NCBI GenBank assembly: GCA_934502905.1
Contig: CAKSVK010000179.1
Coordinates: 1-7,026, forward strand
Length of the DNA: 7,026 nucleotides
Source of the DNA: an uncultured Chitinophagaceae bacterium
GTDB lineage: Bacteria; Bacteroidota; Bacteroidia; Chitinophagales; Chitinophagaceae
Reading direction: 5' to 3'
Of the stretch, positions 1,284 to 7,026 are shown in pieces. Position numbers and translations under genes: made by a program. Each line of letters starts with the position of its first letter. Positions within the stretch are counted from its first letter, which is position 1. The notes under the pieces were generated by a model. The model was not told the origin of the DNA. It worked only from the letters and a program-made list of their open reading frames with translations, and did no database searches.

Positions 1284-1347
1284 GAAGACTCTCCGTGCAT
1301 CCTGCTTTCCACGGATAAAATTTTATTTTATATTTTTAGACACAGCA

Positions 1348-1379
1348 TTTGGAAGTTTATCAAAAGGCATCTACTTTTG
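1348..1379 (+). promoter_or_regulatory. Promoter of tRNA-Glu
   Basis: TTTG at 1348-1351 and TACTTTTG at 1372-1379 are separated by 20 bases, very close to the TTTG-N19-TAnnTTTG pattern of the primary sigma factor in Bacteroidota. The expected transcription start is a few bases after 1380, about 65-70 bases before the tRNA. No other gene lies between, so this most likely drives tRNA-Glu. Confidence 0.65.
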
Positions 1380-1451
1380 CACCACGATTTCCGAAAGGGA
1401 GTTTGTACATAAGTGAAAAGTAACGCTATTTTTCGATTTATGGGACCAGCC

Positions 1452-1523
1452 GGCCCTATCGTCTAGCGGTTAGGACACGTCCCTTTCACGGATGAAACCG
1501 GGGTTCGATTCCCCGTAGGGTCA
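1452..1523 (+). tRNA. tRNA-Glu (anticodon TTC)
   Basis: All parts of the cloverleaf can be folded. The acceptor stem GGCCCTA (1452-1458) pairs with TAGGGTC (1516-1522) with one G-T wobble. The D arm follows from 1461, and the anticodon stem CGTCC/GGATG encloses the loop CTTTCAC with anticodon TTC at 1485-1487. The T arm has the GGTTCGATT type loop. The discriminator base is A1523. CCA is not encoded, so it would be added by tRNA nucleotidyltransferase, as is common in this phylum. The gene marks the edge between GC-rich core DNA and the AT-rich defence genes, and tRNA genes are frequent integration sites. Confidence 0.96.
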
Positions 1524-1525
1524 CA

Positions 1526-1559
1526 AGGGCCCCGCAGTGATGCGGGGCCCTCTTGTTTT
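1526..1559 (+). terminator. Intrinsic terminator of tRNA-Glu
   Basis: AGGGCCCCGCA (1526-1536) and TGCGGGGCCCT (1541-1551) form a perfect 11-bp stem closed by the GNRA-type loop GTGA, followed by CTTGTTTT. It starts three bases after the tRNA end and should also shield the downstream defence operon from tRNA read-through. Confidence 0.9.
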
Positions 1560-1642
1560 ATCCAGAGCCACAGAAACTTAAATCATCTGGTTCTGAAAAA
1601 GGACATATTAATATAATTCTAGGAGCAAATATAAAAGTTATT

Positions 1643-1681
1643 TTTTGCGAAAGTTATCATAAAATGATACCTTTCGCAAAA
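1643..1681. promoter_or_regulatory. 18-bp inverted repeat across the abiEi start codon, probable AbiEi operator
   Basis: The left arm TTTTGCGAAAGTTATCAT (1643-1660) and right arm ATGATACCTTTCGCAAAA (1664-1681) are complementary at 17 of 18 positions (mismatch T1654/C1670), with AAA between them. The right arm begins exactly with the ATG of abiEi and covers its first six codons. AbiEi proteins of type IV toxin-antitoxin systems are known to bind inverted repeats in their own promoter and repress the operon, so this is the natural candidate. In RNA the same sequence would form a hairpin with the AUG in its 3' arm, so translational control is also possible. A near match to the -7 box (TATTTTTTG at 1639-1647, one base too long) overlaps the left arm. 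Confidence 0.7.
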
Positions 1682-2500
1682 TTTTACTCTTTGAAAAGTC
1701 AATTATCAATAAACGATTGGGTAGAACACCTTGCAGCAAAGGGGAGGCATTCTTTTAGCCTTAAAGAGGTAAGGGATGTTTTCCGTGATGATACGGAAGC
1801 AGCCATTAAACTGAAATTGACAAGGCTTGCAGGTAAAGGGAAAATCATCTCCATCCATAAAGGATATTACCTTATCATTACCCCTCAATATATTTCGAGG
1901 GGCATCTTACCTCCTTCCATGTTCATTGATGGGCTGATGAAATTTTTGGAAAGGCCGTACTATGTCGGCTTATTGAATGCTGCCTCGTTTCATGGGGCGG
2001 CACATCAGCAGCCACAGGAATATTTTGTATTTAGCGATTTCCCGGTGTTGCGTCCAACCCGCAAAAAGGGCATCAAAATAAATTATATTAGTAAAAAGGA
2101 GGTTCCCGCTCTGTTTCTTGAAAAAAAGAAAACGGAAACCGGCTATATCCATATATCCAACCCTGCTTTAACAGCAATGGATCTGGTACAATTTGATAAA
2201 CGGATTGGTGGACTTAATAGAGCCGCAACTGTTTTGAATGAACTGGCAGAAGCTATAAAGCCAGAACAAATAACTGTACATCTTTTGAAAGAAGTCCCTG
2301 TTACAGCTATTCAGCGGTTGGGATTTTTATTGGATGTAATATTAAAACAAGATATAGGTAAACATCTCTACGAAGTGAGCAAAAAGGCAGGACTGGAATT
2401 TTTCCGGATTCCGTTAAAGACTTCTGCACCAAGGGTTGGTTTTTTGTCAGACGAGCGATGGAAAATAATTGTGAACTCAGAAATTGAAATAGACGAATGA
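1664..2500 (+). CDS. abiEi: AbiEi-type antitoxin and transcriptional repressor of a type IV toxin-antitoxin system
   Basis: The 278-residue protein has the AbiEi layout. A winged-helix N-terminal part (about residues 15-75) has FSLKEVRDVF, then KLTRLAGKGKIISIHKGYYLI. The C-terminal antitoxin domain carries the family signature YYVGLLNAASFHGAAHQQPQ (99-118), ISNPALTAMDLVQF (164-177) and IQRLGFLLD. In studied AbiE systems this protein neutralises AbiEii without a stable complex and represses the operon by binding inverted repeats. The frame is open upstream to a TTG at 1553, but that lies in the tRNA terminator. ATG 1664 gives the usual family length and sits at the edge of the large palindrome, so it is preferred. 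The stop overlaps the abiEii start (ATGA, 2497-2500), which indicates coupled translation. The gene is far more AT-rich than the DNA left of the tRNA. Confidence 0.88.
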   Translation: MIPFAKFYSLKSQLSINDWVEHLAAKGRHSFSLKEVRDVFRDDTEAAIKLKLTRLAGKGKIISIHKGYYLIITPQYISRGILPPSMFIDGLMKFLERPYYVGLLNAASFHGAAHQQPQEYFVFSDFPVLRPTRKKGIKINYISKKEVPALFLEKKKTETGYIHISNPALTAMDLVQFDKRIGGLNRAATVLNELAEAIKPEQITVHLLKEVPVTAIQRLGFLLDVILKQDIGKHLYEVSKKAGLEFFRIPLKTSAPRVGFLSDERWKIIVNSEIEIDE

Positions 2501-3285
2501 TACCACAGAGCGATATAATAGCATGGAGCAATACCGCTTCATGGCAAACCAATGAACAGGTTGAACAGGATTTGGTGATTTGCCGGACATTGGTAGAAAT
2601 TTTCAATGATGACTACCTGGCAGGGCATCTGGCCTTCCGGGGCGGCACGGCGTTACACAAGTTATACCTTCAACCCCAACCCCGGTATTCCGAAGACATA
2701 GACCTTGTGCAGATGCAAGCCGAACCTATCGGTCAGGTACTGGACAGACTTAGGGATGTATTAGGATTCTTGGGTAAGGCAAGGGTGGAAGTTGGTGATA
2801 TGATGGCAACCATGAAATTTCGCTTTGAATCCGAAATTGCTCCGGTCGTACCGATGCGTTTGAAAATAGAGATAAACTGCCGTGAACATTTTGCGGAATT
2901 GGGATGGGAACAAAAGAATTTCAGTGTACAGTCTAATTGGTTTGAAGGTAAATGTTCTTTGACCACCTACAAGGTAGAGGAACTGCTTGGGACAAAAATC
3001 CGGGCTTTATATCAAAGGCGTAAAGGGCGTGACCTATATGATTTATATCAGGCATTTACGAAAGCTAAGCTGGATGTTGAAGCAATGCTTCATTGTTATC
3101 GCCGGTATATGGATTTCAGTGTCGGTAACGTGCCTTCACAAAGAGAATTTATACAAAACACAGAACTGAAATTACAGGACAAGTATTTCGTGGGCGATAT
3201 TGTTGGGTTAATACGTCCTGATGAAATATATGACCACGAAACAGCATATGAGTTGGTAAAAAAGGAATTGTTTGATAAAATGTAA
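2497..3285 (+). CDS. abiEii: AbiEii-type nucleotidyltransferase toxin of a type IV toxin-antitoxin system
   Basis: This 262-residue protein belongs to the DNA polymerase beta-like nucleotidyltransferases of the AbiEii family. Visible motifs are GGTALHK (49-55), the metal-binding pair in SEDIDL (D67, D69), a possible third acidic residue in KIEIN (E125), and the family-specific motif from K167 to D182, TKIRALYQRRKGRDLYDL (166-183). AbiEii proteins are cytoplasmic toxins that stop growth, in abortive phage defence or plasmid and island maintenance. Related nucleotidyltransferase toxins modify tRNA 3' ends, but the substrate here cannot be told from sequence. All catalytic motifs look intact. 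The start ATG overlaps the abiEi stop, so toxin synthesis is coupled to that of the antitoxin. The next gene follows after 27 bp without a terminator. Confidence 0.9.
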   Translation: MIPQSDIIAWSNTASWQTNEQVEQDLVICRTLVEIFNDDYLAGHLAFRGGTALHKLYLQPQPRYSEDIDLVQMQAEPIGQVLDRLRDVLGFLGKARVEVGDMMATMKFRFESEIAPVVPMRLKIEINCREHFAELGWEQKNFSVQSNWFEGKCSLTTYKVEELLGTKIRALYQRRKGRDLYDLYQAFTKAKLDVEAMLHCYRRYMDFSVGNVPSQREFIQNTELKLQDKYFVGDIVGLIRPDEIYDHETAYELVKKELFDKM

Positions 3286-3312
3286 AATTGACGTGCTCCA
3301 AAAAATGATATT

Positions 3313-4620
3313 ATGAAAATCGAATTCCAGATAGAGGGTTACTGGTGGCTGCCAGAAAATCCAGATAACAGAATTGCCGGTATCTTCTATTACAAACCAA
3401 ATGAAGATTCTGATTTAAAACTATTCGGGGATTTTGACTCTAATCAGGACTTTATATCAAAGCATTTTGTTTCGGAAACAGAACCACCCCTCATTATTCT
3501 CGGTGAGGATGAAAATGCCAATAAAATAACATTAACGATATTAGGCTATGGGAACAAAAATTACAATTTTTTAAGCTCATTCCCACTAATACACTATATA
3601 ATTCGCTATTGTATTAAAGGTATTCACCTTGCTTCCAAAGATGCCAATATTTTCAATGAGATCAAAGTCGAATTAGAATCGCTAACCTCTTGGATGAACT
3701 TCTATCCTGTTAGGCTTTCTATTCCTATCAAAGACAATAAACCAACACGGGGCTTTGCACTATCGTATTCACAAACTGAAGAAAATCTATCGTTTATTAT
3801 CAATGATGGTTTTGAATTGTCAGTAAATGCTCTTGCTACTTGTACCGATATTCATAAAGAAGAAATAGTAGTCCGGCAAAAACATATAGTTTCGATAAAA
3901 AGTACAGAAGCAAGTAATTTCCTCACATTGCTTGATAAAAGCTATCGGTTGCAGTCGTTTCTCAATATGGCAACATTCAACCACAATGATTTCCTGGCAT
4001 TGCGGCTTTATAGCGATCAGCATTTTCAGGAGTTGGAAGATAAGAAGAGATTTCCTACTACTATTGAGTTGTTTTTTAAACAAATGAGTAAAGGGAGGAT
4101 AGATCGTAAATCACCAAAGATCAGAGAATACCTTTTTACTTATAGTGATGTTAAAGACATATTCCCAGAGCTTATAAAAAAATGGTTCACTTTCGATAAG
4201 AAAATGATGCCCATTCTCCGCCATCTTATTGACAGTATCGAACAGAAAACTGATTTTAAAAGTATTGATTTTCTGATAGTCGTTCAGGCTTTGGAGGGAT
4301 ATCATCATCGTTTTTTTGATCAGGAACCAGAAAAGGAGAAGAACTTGAAAAGTCGCTTAAGAAATGTAAAGAATTTTTTTTCGAAAGACATATTAATTAT
4401 CAGAGAAATTGACACAGATTATACTGCAAATTCGAGAAACTATTACTCCCATTTTTATAATAAATCAGCAGATATTCAAATAGCGGAAGGTGCCGATTTG
4501 TACCATTTAACTAACAAGCTACGTTATTTGCTAATTTGCTGTTTCTTACATGAATTGGGATTAGAGAAAGTAAAAATTAACAATATTTTACAAACGTATA
4601 CTGAAAGACTACTGTTGTGA
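3313..4620 (+). CDS. apeA: ApeA-like HEPN-domain phage-defence protein
   Basis: The 435-residue protein begins with IEFQIEGYWWLPENPDNRIA, typical of the ApeA N-terminal domain (GYWWLP, then a predicted beta-rich region up to about residue 200). The C-terminal part (about 310-430) is predicted helical and fits the ApeA-like HEPN domain: QALEGYHHRFF (325-335) and RNYYSH (375-380), which supplies the R-x4-H dyad R375/H380 of HEPN ribonucleases. ApeA is known as a single-gene anti-phage protein; HEPN proteins of this kind usually cleave RNA and cause abortive infection. The molecular trigger and RNA target cannot be read from the sequence. No signal peptide or membrane segment is apparent. It starts 27 bp after abiEii on the same strand, so it probably shares the AbiEi-controlled transcript. 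Family recognition is from memory of motifs, without a profile search. Confidence 0.8.
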   Translation: MKIEFQIEGYWWLPENPDNRIAGIFYYKPNEDSDLKLFGDFDSNQDFISKHFVSETEPPLIILGEDENANKITLTILGYGNKNYNFLSSFPLIHYIIRYCIKGIHLASKDANIFNEIKVELESLTSWMNFYPVRLSIPIKDNKPTRGFALSYSQTEENLSFIINDGFELSVNALATCTDIHKEEIVVRQKHIVSIKSTEASNFLTLLDKSYRLQSFLNMATFNHNDFLALRLYSDQHFQELEDKKRFPTTIELFFKQMSKGRIDRKSPKIREYLFTYSDVKDIFPELIKKWFTFDKKMMPILRHLIDSIEQKTDFKSIDFLIVVQALEGYHHRFFDQEPEKEKNLKSRLRNVKNFFSKDILIIREIDTDYTANSRNYYSHFYNKSADIQIAEGADLYHLTNKLRYLLICCFLHELGLEKVKINNILQTYTERLLL

Positions 4621-4651
4621 CAATTTAATTATGAAACATAATGTTTGCCTA

Positions 4652-4827
4652 GGGTCTACTGAAAAAGTCACGTATTCAGGCAGCGCATTTTAGGCTATTC
4701 GGGAGGTTCTTCATCCTGTTTTCATCTTTTACAACGACTGTCTGTGCGTAAACTATAACCAATAGGGGGCCTTGCCCCGCCAACTTGACAAGGTTCAGCA
4801 CCAAAATGATGCAGGCAACCCATGATT
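4652..4827 (-). pseudogene. Possible C-terminal transposase remnant with an IS-like end
   Basis: On the minus strand the frame ending in TGA at 4676-4678 reads VACIILVLNLVKLAG and continues for about 30 more residues. The piece NLVKLAG resembles the last helix (NLxRL) of IS1182-like transposases. About seven bases beyond the stop lies GGGTCTACTGAAAAAGTC (4652-4669, plus strand), which resembles the terminal inverted repeats of such elements. The frame runs into the IS21 terminal repeats to the right, where the older element would have been cut. The piece is too short to identify firmly and may be plain non-coding DNA. Together with 4828-4911 it fills the space between apeA and istB; no other gene is seen there. 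Confidence 0.3.
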
Positions 4828-4833
4828 TGCGTA

Positions 4834-4878
4834 TTCCGGCCAAAGGGGGCCACTGATTCCGGAGCAAAGGGGGCCAGT
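4834..4878. repeat. Tandem terminal repeats of the IS21 element
   Basis: Two copies of TTCCGG(C/AG)CAAAGGGGGCCA lie at 4834-4852 and 4857-4876, one 23-bp period apart. IS21-family ends typically carry several such repeated transposase-binding sites. A weaker relative, AATAGGGGGCC, occurs at 4761-4771 and may be chance or a third, diverged site. Confidence 0.75.
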
Positions 4879-4902
4879 TAGTGGAGAGGATTTCTTATGT
4901 TT

Positions 4903-4932
4903 CAAAGGTATTTAAAGGGTTTGATTTTTCAA
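4903..4932 (-). promoter_or_regulatory. Outward-facing promoter at the IS21 end
   Basis: On the minus strand TTG (4930-4932), exactly 19 bases, and TACCTTTG (4903-4910) match the Bacteroidota consensus TTG-N19-TAnnTTTG without deviation. The TTG lies inside the last codons of istB, the -7 box just after its stop. Transcription would leave the element leftward through the terminal repeats and run antisense to apeA. Confidence 0.5.
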
Positions 4933-5646
4933 TGTTTTTCTCAAAGATTCTCCGGTTAATTCTATTCTGTGCGCCTGATGTATTATTCTGTCCAGAATGG
5001 CATCCGCGATAGTAGATTCGTTGATGTAATTATGCCAGTCTGCTACGGGTAACTGAGCGGTGATAATAGTGGAGTATCTTCCCTGACGATCTTCTATAAT
5101 TTGCAACAGGGCCAGCCTGGCGGCCATATCCAGAGGCGCTATTCCCCAGTCATCCAGGATCAGCAGGTGCCTGTTTTCGATTTTCTCTAACTCCTTTCTG
5201 AAGCTGCCATCTATTCTGTCGGATTTGAGTTTCTGGAGTAGTTTAGGCAGGGAATGGTAAGCTACTTTTTTACCAAGTGTACACACATGATGGCCTATAG
5301 CAGAAGCCAGATAACTCTTTCCACAACCAGTGGCACCGGTAATAATAATGTTTTCAGCCCTGTCAATAAAGGAGCCGTCCAGGTAATAATTGAGCTGCTG
5401 TTTGCTCAGATTCCGGTCGGTAGAACAGATGATCTGCTGGATGCTTGCCTGATAGCGGAACCGCGCATTTTTGATCGACAGTGTAGTTTTCCGGTGGCTT
5501 CTATACAGGTCTTCGGCCTGGATTAACTGGGCCAGCAGGAGGTCCTGATCCGGTCTTTGGTGAGGGCTCATAGCCAGGTAGGCTTCCAGATGTGCTGCCA
5601 TTCCGTAGAGCTTGAGTTTTCTGAGTGTTTGTAAGTTACTGTTCAT
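4912..5646 (-). CDS. istB: IS21-family helper ATPase IstB
   Basis: This complete 244-residue AAA+ ATPase assists the IstA transposase of IS21 elements, in which it forms oligomers on target DNA and selects the insertion site. Visible are the N-terminal helical part (LKLYGMAAHLEAYLAM), Walker A GATGCGKS (104-111), Walker B LLILDD (161-166), the sensor region STIITAQLPVADWHNYI, and the C-terminal family motif TIADAILDRIIHQAHRIEL (212-230). The length is usual for IstB. It starts 15 bp after the istA stop, as in the normal istAB operon. It looks intact, but its partner istA is interrupted here, so it would act only if a complete copy exists elsewhere in the genome. Confidence 0.95.
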   Translation of the reverse strand: MNSNLQTLRKLKLYGMAAHLEAYLAMSPHQRPDQDLLLAQLIQAEDLYRSHRKTTLSIKNARFRYQASIQQIICSTDRNLSKQQLNYYLDGSFIDRAENIIITGATGCGKSYLASAIGHHVCTLGKKVAYHSLPKLLQKLKSDRIDGSFRKELEKIENRHLLILDDWGIAPLDMAARLALLQIIEDRQGRYSTIITAQLPVADWHNYINESTIADAILDRIIHQAHRIELTGESLRKTLKNQTL

Positions 5647-5661
5647 TACATTTAGATGGTT

Positions 5662-6061
5662 TTATTGATAATAATTGGCTCCCCGTTGATTGACATGTAC
5701 TACAGGGGCGACTTCTGCAGCACCTTCCTGAAGCGATTCCAGGTCAGTATATTGAAGTAGGTACTCGATCTGTCTGAGACTGGCGTAATCATATTTCATT
5801 CCGATTTCACAGGCCAGCTCCAGCTTCTTTTCTCCATATTTTTTGACATAAGACAGCAGGCCTCTACAGCGTTTAAATCCTGCTTCGGGATGTTTCCCCT
5901 GCGAGAGAAGTTGCTCTATGAAGCCTGCAGTATGAGTTCCGATTTTATGGCCTTCTTTTAAAAAGTATTCTTCTGACCAGTTCCGGTAATAGGCGTGACG
6001 AGGGTGAAGATGACTGGCGTTAGTGGAATATTTTCCAATACCGGCCATCCGCTGATGAATA
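5662..6061 (-). pseudogene. istA: IS21-family transposase IstA, C-terminal fragment cut by IS66
   Basis: About 132 C-terminal residues remain of a protein usually near 500. IHQRMAGIGKYSTNASHLHP, then AYYRNWSEEYFL, GKHPEAGFKRCRGLLSYVKK and the terminal VAPVVHVNQRGANYYQ match the C-terminal region of IstA. The integrase-type catalytic core and the DNA-binding N-terminus are absent from the window. Recognisable IstA sequence begins at the codon at 6058-6060, one base short of the IS66 end sequence that starts at 6062. The frame stays open into IS66 DNA up to 6165, but that extension is the shadow of the IS66 gene. The missing 5' part is expected beyond the right edge of the window. Confidence 0.85.
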
Positions 6062-7026
6062 GTAAGCAATCGCTGACCCCCCTGTTGATTACTATTTTTT
6101 TTGTGCAATAGTTTTGTATCTGTGTGGGAGCAGGTCGGAGAATTTACCTTCGTAGTTTGGGTCATTTAGTTTTCTGAGAGTATCTATTAGCCATTCCTGT
6201 GGATTAACCTGGTGTTTTTTGCATGTGGCAAACAGGGAATAAATCATCGCGGCATTCTGGGCGGTGTCATGGGTTCCGGCGAAAAGATAATTTTTGCGGC
6301 CCAATGCCACTGGCCGGATGGCATTTTCGATCAGGTTGTTGTCGAGTTGGAGGTCTCCATGAAGCGTATAGAACTTCATGTTATCCATCAGGGGCAATGC
6401 ATAGGCTATGGCCTTGCCGATAGGACTGGAAGGCAGTACCCGGGGATATTGCAGAACCATCCATTCTTTCAACTCGGTCAGGATGGGAGAGGCCTCGGTC
6501 ATACGCTTCTCCACGATCTGGCTCTCGGTCAGCGGTGGTTGTGCCTCCCGGATCTGCCTCTCAATTTGATACAGCTTCCCGATGGTTTCGACGGCCCATG
6601 TCGCTCTTTGCTGATCATATTTAACCGCCTCGTCAAACTTACGCCGGATATGAGCCATGCAGTAGTAGTGCTGTATGGCTTTATTTTTGGTAAACAGGCT
6701 TTGATAAACTTCGTAAGCATCGGTCTGTATTACGCCGCTGTAATCTTTGAGTATTGCTGCCGGACCCGAGCGGTCTCTTCCTGTTCTATAATCAAAGAAT
6801 ACCAACCCATCGGCCACAGCATGGTAAGTCCACAGGTAGCCCCGGTGCGAAGAACCGTTTTTACTTCCTTCCAATACCTGTAAGCGGGTTTCATCTACCT
6901 GTAAATACAGGTTGGCCAATGTTTCCCGTTTGAGTGCATTGTAAACGGGTAGCAGCGACTTACAGGCAGAATTGGTATTGTCGGTCAGTGTGGAAGGAGG
7001 GATTTTTATCCCTATACGCTCAAAGA
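6062..7026 (-). mobile_element. IS66-family element, right end inserted in istA (left end off window)
   Basis: The element boundary is placed at GTAAGC (6062-6067), because IS66-family ends begin with GTAA, it lies 30 bases past the transposase stop, and IstA homology resumes immediately outside it. The likely end sequence is GTAAGCAATCGCTGACCCCC (6062-6081). IS66 elements create 8-bp target duplications, so GATGAATA (6054-6061) should recur at the other end, outside this window. IS66 accessory genes (tnpA, tnpB) would also lie beyond position 7026. Confidence 0.65.
6092..7026 (-). CDS. tnpC: IS66-family transposase (TnpC), partial at the N-terminus
   Basis: The reading frame is open to the right edge, giving 310 residues of the catalytic and C-terminal parts. 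The TTG at 6917-6919 is not a real start, because family-typical sequence (FERIGIKIPPSTLTDNTNSA) continues upstream. The DDE triad of the IS66 transposase domain is visible: D44 in QVDET, D102 in VIQTDAY and E233 in NNLIENAIRPVALGRKNYLF (counted from the window edge). YYCMAHIRRKFDEA and the C-terminal segment YSLFATCKKHQVNPQEWL, then DLLPHRYK, also match the family. The enzyme cuts and joins the element ends during transposition, together with TnpA and TnpB in many members. The visible part shows no frameshift or lost catalytic residue. The stop is 30 bases inside the presumed element end. Confidence 0.95.
   Translation of the reverse strand, partial: FERIGIKIPPSTLTDNTNSACKSLLPVYNALKRETLANLYLQVDETRLQVLEGSKNGSSHRGYLWTYHAVADGLVFFDYRTGRDRSGPAAILKDYSGVIQTDAYEVYQSLFTKNKAIQHYYCMAHIRRKFDEAVKYDQQRATWAVETIGKLYQIERQIREAQPPLTESQIVEKRMTEASPILTELKEWMVLQYPRVLPSSPIGKAIAYALPLMDNMKFYTLHGDLQLDNNLIENAIRPVALGRKNYLFAGTHDTAQNAAMIYSLFATCKKHQVNPQEWLIDTLRKLNDPNYEGKFSDLLPHRYKTIAQKK

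Follow-up and report, generated by a model that had tools for sequence, protein, structure and literature searches.

The AbiE operon of S. agalactiae is among the closest described counterparts of the locus reported here. According to two reports on it, AbiEi binds two 23-base-pair (bp) inverted repeats that lie 3 bp apart and represses its own operon (PMC3985639, PMC7319586), and AbiEii carries motifs I and II in the form hG[G/S]x15DhD (PMC3985639). We analysed a stretch of 7,026 nucleotides (nt) from an uncultured Chitinophagaceae bacterium (GenBank assembly GCA_934502905.1, contig CAKSVK010000179.1), hereafter the window, in which abiEi and abiEii are followed by a gene for an ApeA-like HEPN protein. 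A sequence-only reading of the window had proposed that these three genes form one composite defence system. We consider it likely that the AbiE type IV toxin-antitoxin operon of the window is complete in itself, that the ApeA-like HEPN gene behind it is a separate unit, and that these two mobile defence modules were paired by accident.

An experimental ApeA was reportedly described by Gao et al. 2020, and the title of a preprint names deoxydinucleotides as activators of ApeA. Proteins that join ApeA-NTD1 to HEPN have a mostly beta N-terminal domain of ~300 amino acids (aa) and a HEPN domain with an R-x4-H motif (Anantharaman et al. 2013, PMC3710099), and the third protein of the window resembles them in these features; unlike them, it has its best PADLOC match in the candidate family PDC-S58, and the function of this branch is predicted. 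ApeA-type genes embedded in restriction-modification operons of epsilonproteobacteria are listed in Table 1 of PMC3710099. The ApeA-like gene of the window, and that of its relative at locus L015, likewise lies tight against another defence locus; in the window, however, the partner is AbiE, which was seen at 0 of 52 other ApeA-like loci. A further parallel is offered by WYL-type regulators of defence islands such as BrxR (PMC9122601), which are reported to be DNA-binding autorepressors that front defence genes. Unlike them, AbiEi is an antitoxin with a toxin gene of its own, and across the loci examined its link to the third gene is not kept.

The AbiE operon and the ApeA-like gene

The identities given to the three genes by the sequence-only reading (AbiEi, AbiEii and an ApeA-like HEPN protein) were borne out by Pfam: with matches counted against Pfam's own cut-offs, AbiEi_1, AbiEii, ApeA_NTD1 and HEPN_Apea were all above them. 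The layout was also as it had described. The abiEi-abiEii junction is an ATGA overlap, with the abiEii ATG at 2497 running into the abiEi stop codon (2498-2500), and the ApeA-like gene follows after an intergenic gap of 27 nt (3286-3312) that has no terminator-like site. All three genes are on the plus strand, and the ApeA-like open reading frame (ORF) is intact (3313-4620, 435 aa), so that the cassette ends at 4620. The proposed cassette start at 1643 had to be corrected, as this position is not a start codon; the in-frame candidates are ATG 1664 (278 aa) and TTG 1691 (269 aa). The TTG is the likelier start of abiEi, because the relatives P0218 and P0231 have their initial Met at the 1691 column and because the peptide that precedes it, MIPFAK, is a translated half-site of the operator described below. 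Ahead of the likely start (1613-1691), the operator DNA stays open in frame, and the MIPFAK peptide also occurs in P0213, P0215 and others. For this reason, a false N-terminal extension is probable in some of the AbiEi proteins in databases.

An AbiEi-family gene lies directly 5' of an AbiEii-family nucleotidyltransferase gene, as in AbiE systems. The full-length PADLOC AbiEi models match the window AbiEi. For the N-terminal winged-helix DNA-binding domain, a match to AbiEi_4 (residues 28-78 of the translated stretch) reached 14.2 bits, which is under the cut-off of 25, and NCBIfam gave no match over a cut-off for the cassette proteins (17.9 bits for its AbiEi model vs a cut-off of 150). Motifs I and II are both found in the window AbiEii, whose motif residues G49, G50, D67 and D69 are invariant in 15 aligned sequences. 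With S. agalactiae AbiE (PMC3985639, PMC7319586), the window shares the gene order, the 4-nt overlap, the AbiEi C-terminal domain, G49/G50 and D67/D69 at the same residue numbers, and, at the operon front, inverted repeats around a 3-nt centre; in contrast to it, the window sequence is distant, the dyad almost reaches the likely start codon and an ApeA-like gene stands behind.

The 'probable AbiEi operator' of the earlier reading exists as a dyad at the front of the operon (1638-1686), in which 19 of 23 pairs match, and none of 200 first-order shuffles contained one as good. An inverted-repeat search at the abiEi front returned 28-nt arms around a 3-nt centre. The same symmetry recurs in relatives, for which 35 AbiEi-start regions (L034-L063, L083, L129-L132) were reduced to 30 nonredundant ones: at least 15 of 23 pairs were found in 18 of these 30, and the remaining 12 were below 15. 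Control placements gave at least 15 pairs at 0/25 AbiEii starts, 0/28 positions inside abiEi and 5/32 further upstream. At the relatives' AbiEi starts, odd centres outscored even ones (mean pairs 14.8-15.6 vs 12.1-12.6), and the dyad axis is therefore common to the relatives. Within the strong dyads, which span ~49 bp, the letters vary between loci and the symmetry is retained. By analogy with S. agalactiae, these observations support the assignment of 1638-1686 as the predicted AbiEi operator.

The third protein matched PF18862 (ApeA_NTD1, E 2.3e-41) and PF18739 (HEPN_Apea, E 1.2e-16), with a beta-rich N-terminal part at residues ~1-255 and a helical C-terminal HEPN domain at ~277-434. Its AlphaFold2 model (mean predicted local distance difference test score, pLDDT, 85.7; predicted template modelling score, pTM, 0.84) has the same order of a beta part followed by a helical part, in agreement with ApeA_NTD1 followed by HEPN_Apea. 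An R-x4-6-H catalytic motif is found as RNYYSH at residues 375-380, of which R375, Y377, S379 and H380 are invariant in 40 aligned sequences. In PADLOC, PDC-S58 was the best match and the Cas13-ApeA models were weaker. In two relatives of the ApeA-like gene, a frame break or stop interrupts the coding sequence (L001:8001-9280, Chryseobacterium cucumeris; L007:8001-9305, Mucilaginibacter polytrichastri).

Linkage of the two modules in other loci

Linkage was assessed from both sides. A profile scan gave 31 ApeA-like loci (29 genome and 2 viral), and AbiEi and AbiEii were absent from all 31, both by tblastn and with profiles built from 120 relatives each (at least 52% identical to the window); a Pfam neighbour scan was added for distant families. 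The 395-genome sample, drawn from the phylum of G007 (a Mucilaginibacter), contained PF18862 in 16 genomes (14 over the cut-off), the ApeA-like profile in 10 and PF08843 in 234, and PF08843 was also present in 13 of the 16 PF18862 genomes. In these 16 genomes, no AbiE profile match was found in 15 further PF18862 regions (13 over the cut-off; L120 and L123 match only below it) or in L007. AbiE was likewise absent from all 6 plasmid records covered, out of 7 with a match, which brings the count of AbiE beside an ApeA-like gene to 0 of 52 other loci (31 + 15 + 6). The Pfam neighbour scan covered 107 of 148 listed ORFs, the 107 coming from 45 of these loci (37 ORFs longer than ~465 aa were left out, as were 4 of L012, a near-copy of L010). 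No PF08843 was found among the 107 neighbour proteins, the single match being the control; with 25 of 97 families listed, this result holds for AbiEii, not for AbiEi. Two neighbours matched PF13304; AbiEii is named in the description of this AAA domain, but neither match was counted as AbiEii.

From the other side, a search of the 395 genomes with the window AbiEii gave 70 matching at E 0.001, 30 of these at E 1e-20. AbiEi adjoins AbiEii in all of the 30 best AbiE loci (some genes are fragmentary), and an ApeA-like gene was present in none of them within flanks of up to 1.5 kb. Neither was one found in the wider flanks of 19 of these loci and of a second copy in G172, in four viral AbiE loci (in one of them the sequence stops 200 nt past abiEii), or in the 3 plasmid records covered out of 70 with AbiEii. 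In total, 0 of 38 distinct AbiE loci (30 + 1 + 4 + 3) had an ApeA-like gene beside AbiE. Since the ApeA-like family is rare, no adjacency would be expected by chance. The linkage test shows that a conserved AbiE-ApeA unit does not appear in the loci that could be read, and no AbiE-ApeA operon is described in the titles and abstract starts listed from the literature searched, in which most subscription journals are not covered. AbiE, ApeA and HEPN occurred jointly in a single paper of that literature, and its sole mention of AbiE is within the title of a reference. The sequence-only reading had proposed to look among AbiEii neighbours for a downstream ApeA/HEPN gene and had named a pair almost never found together as the outcome that would speak against a composite system; no such gene was found, and the trio is kept at none of the loci counted from either side.

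A true three-gene composite, in which AbiEi would repress all the genes and its loss would release the AbiEii nucleotidyltransferase together with the HEPN RNase, is therefore very unlikely in our judgement. The 4-nt overlap, the 27-nt gap without a terminator-like site, the common strand and the good AbiEi-type dyad at the cassette front are what one would expect of it, and in Serratia the antitoxin transcripts of the chromosomal abiE rose when the AbiEii toxin was expressed (PMC7725324), so that the level of a gene placed behind abiE could go up too. However, the linkage is missing at 52 other loci where no AbiE was detected (some shortened by contig ends), the HEPN gene has no AbiEi-type dyad in front of it, and the ApeA-like gene and abiE differ in base composition.

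Both modules keep changing neighbours across loci. L015 has its ApeA-like gene tightly enclosed in a type I restriction-modification operon, with the specificity gene on one side and the restriction-subunit gene on the other, and the Bacteroidales loci L016-L025 have tight layouts that resemble it; Methylase_S was present in 8 of the 107 scanned neighbours of ApeA-like genes. Just 5' of other ApeA-like genes are an Eco57I-like gene (L003), a type ISP gene (L011) and HsdR (L028), and the remaining neighbours include proteins of no family (L001, L009), a TonB receptor (L007), NOV_C (L114) and DUF1501 (L119).

On the AbiE side, 23 regions were readable downstream (20 and 3 viral) and were surveyed for same-strand ORFs of at least 80 aa within 60 bp. 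Such an ORF was found 3' of AbiE in 7 of the 23, and 4 of the 7 were defence systems: a UG5-nitrilase pair of the defence-associated reverse transcriptase (DRT) type (L064:5171-10002), Gabija (L066:5171-10306), type I restriction-modification (L069:5070-10624) and TOTE (L078:2814-6888). The other three were a methyltransferase with a glycosyltransferase after it (L067; the former gave a weak PADLOC mad2 match of 41 bits, which was not counted), a short ORF before MatE (L073) and a Y-family polymerase (L129). When the next ORF was scanned in a further 12 regions, 2 were defence genes, each of them on the opposite strand (HEC-01B in L071, JetD in L076). The difference in defence share between the two groups is suggestive only (one-sided Fisher ~0.09, hand calculation), and the PADLOC scan of the next ORF leaves out L077, L081, L083 and L132, where this ORF is shorter than 100 aa. 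On a Rhizobium sophoriradicis plasmid (L143:3177-8807), AbiE is followed 161 nt on by a Gabija-like pair, an annotated ATPase (GajA-like by PADLOC) and a helicase, with the ATPase gene split by an element of the IS481 type of insertion sequence (IS).

These followers are the ground for a reading in which AbiE is a self-repressing front module with defence effectors of different kinds placed behind it, and the ApeA-like gene is one passenger among these, which AbiE addiction would retain and AbiEi would co-regulate mildly. We regard this as unlikely. The four defence loci close behind AbiE and the Rhizobium arrangement agree with it, but the sample is small, its ORF calling was simple and its Fisher value is the one given above. 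Furthermore, 16 of the 23 AbiE regions have no close same-strand ORF, the other next ORFs were defence genes in only 2 of 12 cases and then on the opposite strand, four further regions lie outside the PADLOC next-ORF scan, and defence neighbours are predicted by defence islands alone. A wider version, in which AbiE would be a portable front module that provides an antitoxin-controlled promoter and a locus-guarding toxin to interchangeable effectors inducible when a phage upsets AbiEi, seems to us quite improbable. Its effectors would be the ApeA-like HEPN RNase here and Gabija, a UG5 reverse transcriptase, TOTE or type I restriction elsewhere.

Transcription of the third gene

A search for terminators came up empty in the 27-nt gap. 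Within abiEii it picked out two weak terminator-like patterns (2985-3005 and 3078-3092), and in the region 1300-4920 four such patterns were found against 2.7 expected. Promoters of Bacteroidota have a consensus of TTTG at -33 and TAnnTTTG at -7, and no promoter of this type was found in 3150-3313. A sigma-70-like site with TG before the second hexamer lies at 3253-3281, 31 nt upstream of the HEPN start codon. This site would suit a fully independent ApeA-like gene transcribed from a promoter of its own within the 3' end of abiEii, an alternative that we consider possible but rather doubtful: sigma-70-like sites occur in the region at chance level (14 vs 10.6 expected, standard deviation 3.2), and the promoter type of the phylum was the one missing from the stretch before the gene.

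Because the gap has no terminator-like site, the HEPN gene is probably transcribed at least in part by read-through from the abiE promoter. Upstream of the HEPN gene there is no AbiEi-type dyad, as the best repeat has 11 of 23 pairs and was equalled in 184 of 200 shuffles; therefore, control by AbiEi would be possible only via read-through. By analogy with the antitoxin transcripts raised by the toxin in Serratia (PMC7725324), it is conceivable that the transcript of the third gene would rise as well.

In the accidental pairing that we favour, AbiEi would bind the dyad and repress its own promoter, as its S. agalactiae counterpart does, and a drop or titration of AbiEi would free AbiEii, which by its family would arrest growth through nucleotide transfer. 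The ApeA-like protein would act alone: a signal of infection, sensed by its beta-rich N-terminal part, would activate the HEPN RNase, and RNA cleavage by this enzyme would stop the infected cell. Relief of AbiEi repression could raise the HEPN level through read-through, as a by-product of position, and no counterpart to this arrangement of AbiE reading through into HEPN was found in the loci examined.

Several points weigh against an accident. The spacing is operon-like, with 27 nt on the same strand and a gap lacking a terminator-like site. As 4 of 7 same-strand ORFs within 60 bp behind other AbiE operons are also defence genes, the position behind AbiE may be more than an accident. Little or no upstream DNA is available at the ApeA-like loci L014, L027 and several of L111-L125, which are on short contigs. 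A remaining doubt is that a small clade keeping the trio may exist among the closest HEPN relatives (89-64% identical), which are mostly on metagenome contigs.

Origin and significance of the locus

The GC content at third codon positions is 0.371 in abiEi, 0.431 in abiEii and 0.331 in the ApeA-like gene, against values of 0.705 and 0.663 for the two genes that lie at the window's left edge, so that AbiE and the HEPN gene both look foreign to the chromosome by composition. Among the matches listed, the nearest named relatives of AbiE are from Hydrotalea, Chitinophagaceae and one metagenome-assembled Verrucomicrobia genome, and those of the HEPN protein are from Sinomicrobium oceani (64%) and Chryseobacterium cucumeris (60%); the closest HEPN relatives overall are up to 89% identical, mostly on metagenome contigs. 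The two modules may have arrived separately.

The cassette is located between a tRNA-Glu gene with its hairpin and insertion sequences (Table 1). Before the tRNA-Glu gene, the sequence at 1348-1379 agrees exactly with the promoter consensus of Bacteroidota (TTTG, 20 nt, TACTTTTG), and such a match was also present in 46 of 200 shuffles. Further left, a glycosyltransferase ORF on the minus strand (235-1270) has a late start, and an upstream in-frame stop seems to cut off its N-terminal end. To the right of the cassette, CAAAGGGGGCCA is repeated at 4841 and 4865. The IS66 transposase appears to have entered the IS21 element.

Table 1. Features of the cassette and its flanks, in window coordinates
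Feature	Position	Strand	Support or remark
tRNA-Glu(ttc), left of cassette	1452..1524	+	
Strong terminator-like hairpin 3' of tRNA-Glu, 11 pairs	1526-1551		
Predicted AbiEi operator dyad	1638..1686	.	23-bp inverted repeat, 3-nt centre, 49 bp
Dyad core TTTGCGAAAG	1644-1653; other strand 1671-1680	.	Predicted AbiEi operator
abiEi (antitoxin, predicted repressor)	1691..2500	+	PF09407 E 2.8e-26; PADLOC AbiEi E 3.4e-93
abiEii (predicted nucleotidyltransferase toxin, 262 aa)	2497..3285	+	PF08843 E 1.6e-33; PADLOC AbiEii E 2.4e-110
27-nt gap between abiEii and ApeA-like gene	3286..3312	.	No terminator-like site, no AbiEi-type dyad
ApeA-like gene, 435 aa	3313..4620	+	PF18862 and PF18739; PADLOC PDC-S58 E 2.2e-59
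HEPN motif RNYYSH (R375, H380), predicted RNase active site	4435..4452	+	Conservation
IstB	4912-5646	-	
C-terminal IstA-like fragment	5662-6165	-	Resembles IS21 IstA as annotated in plasmids
IS66 transposase	6092-7024	-	

In summary, the locus contributes an AbiE operon of the Bacteroidota type whose operator dyad is clear, together with an intact representative of an ApeA-like branch (PDC-S58) that has only candidate status in PADLOC. The case further illustrates that close spacing, taken by itself, is a poor argument for a composite defence system. The reading of AbiE as a front module, if true, would explain how toxin-antitoxin autoregulation controls unrelated defence effectors.

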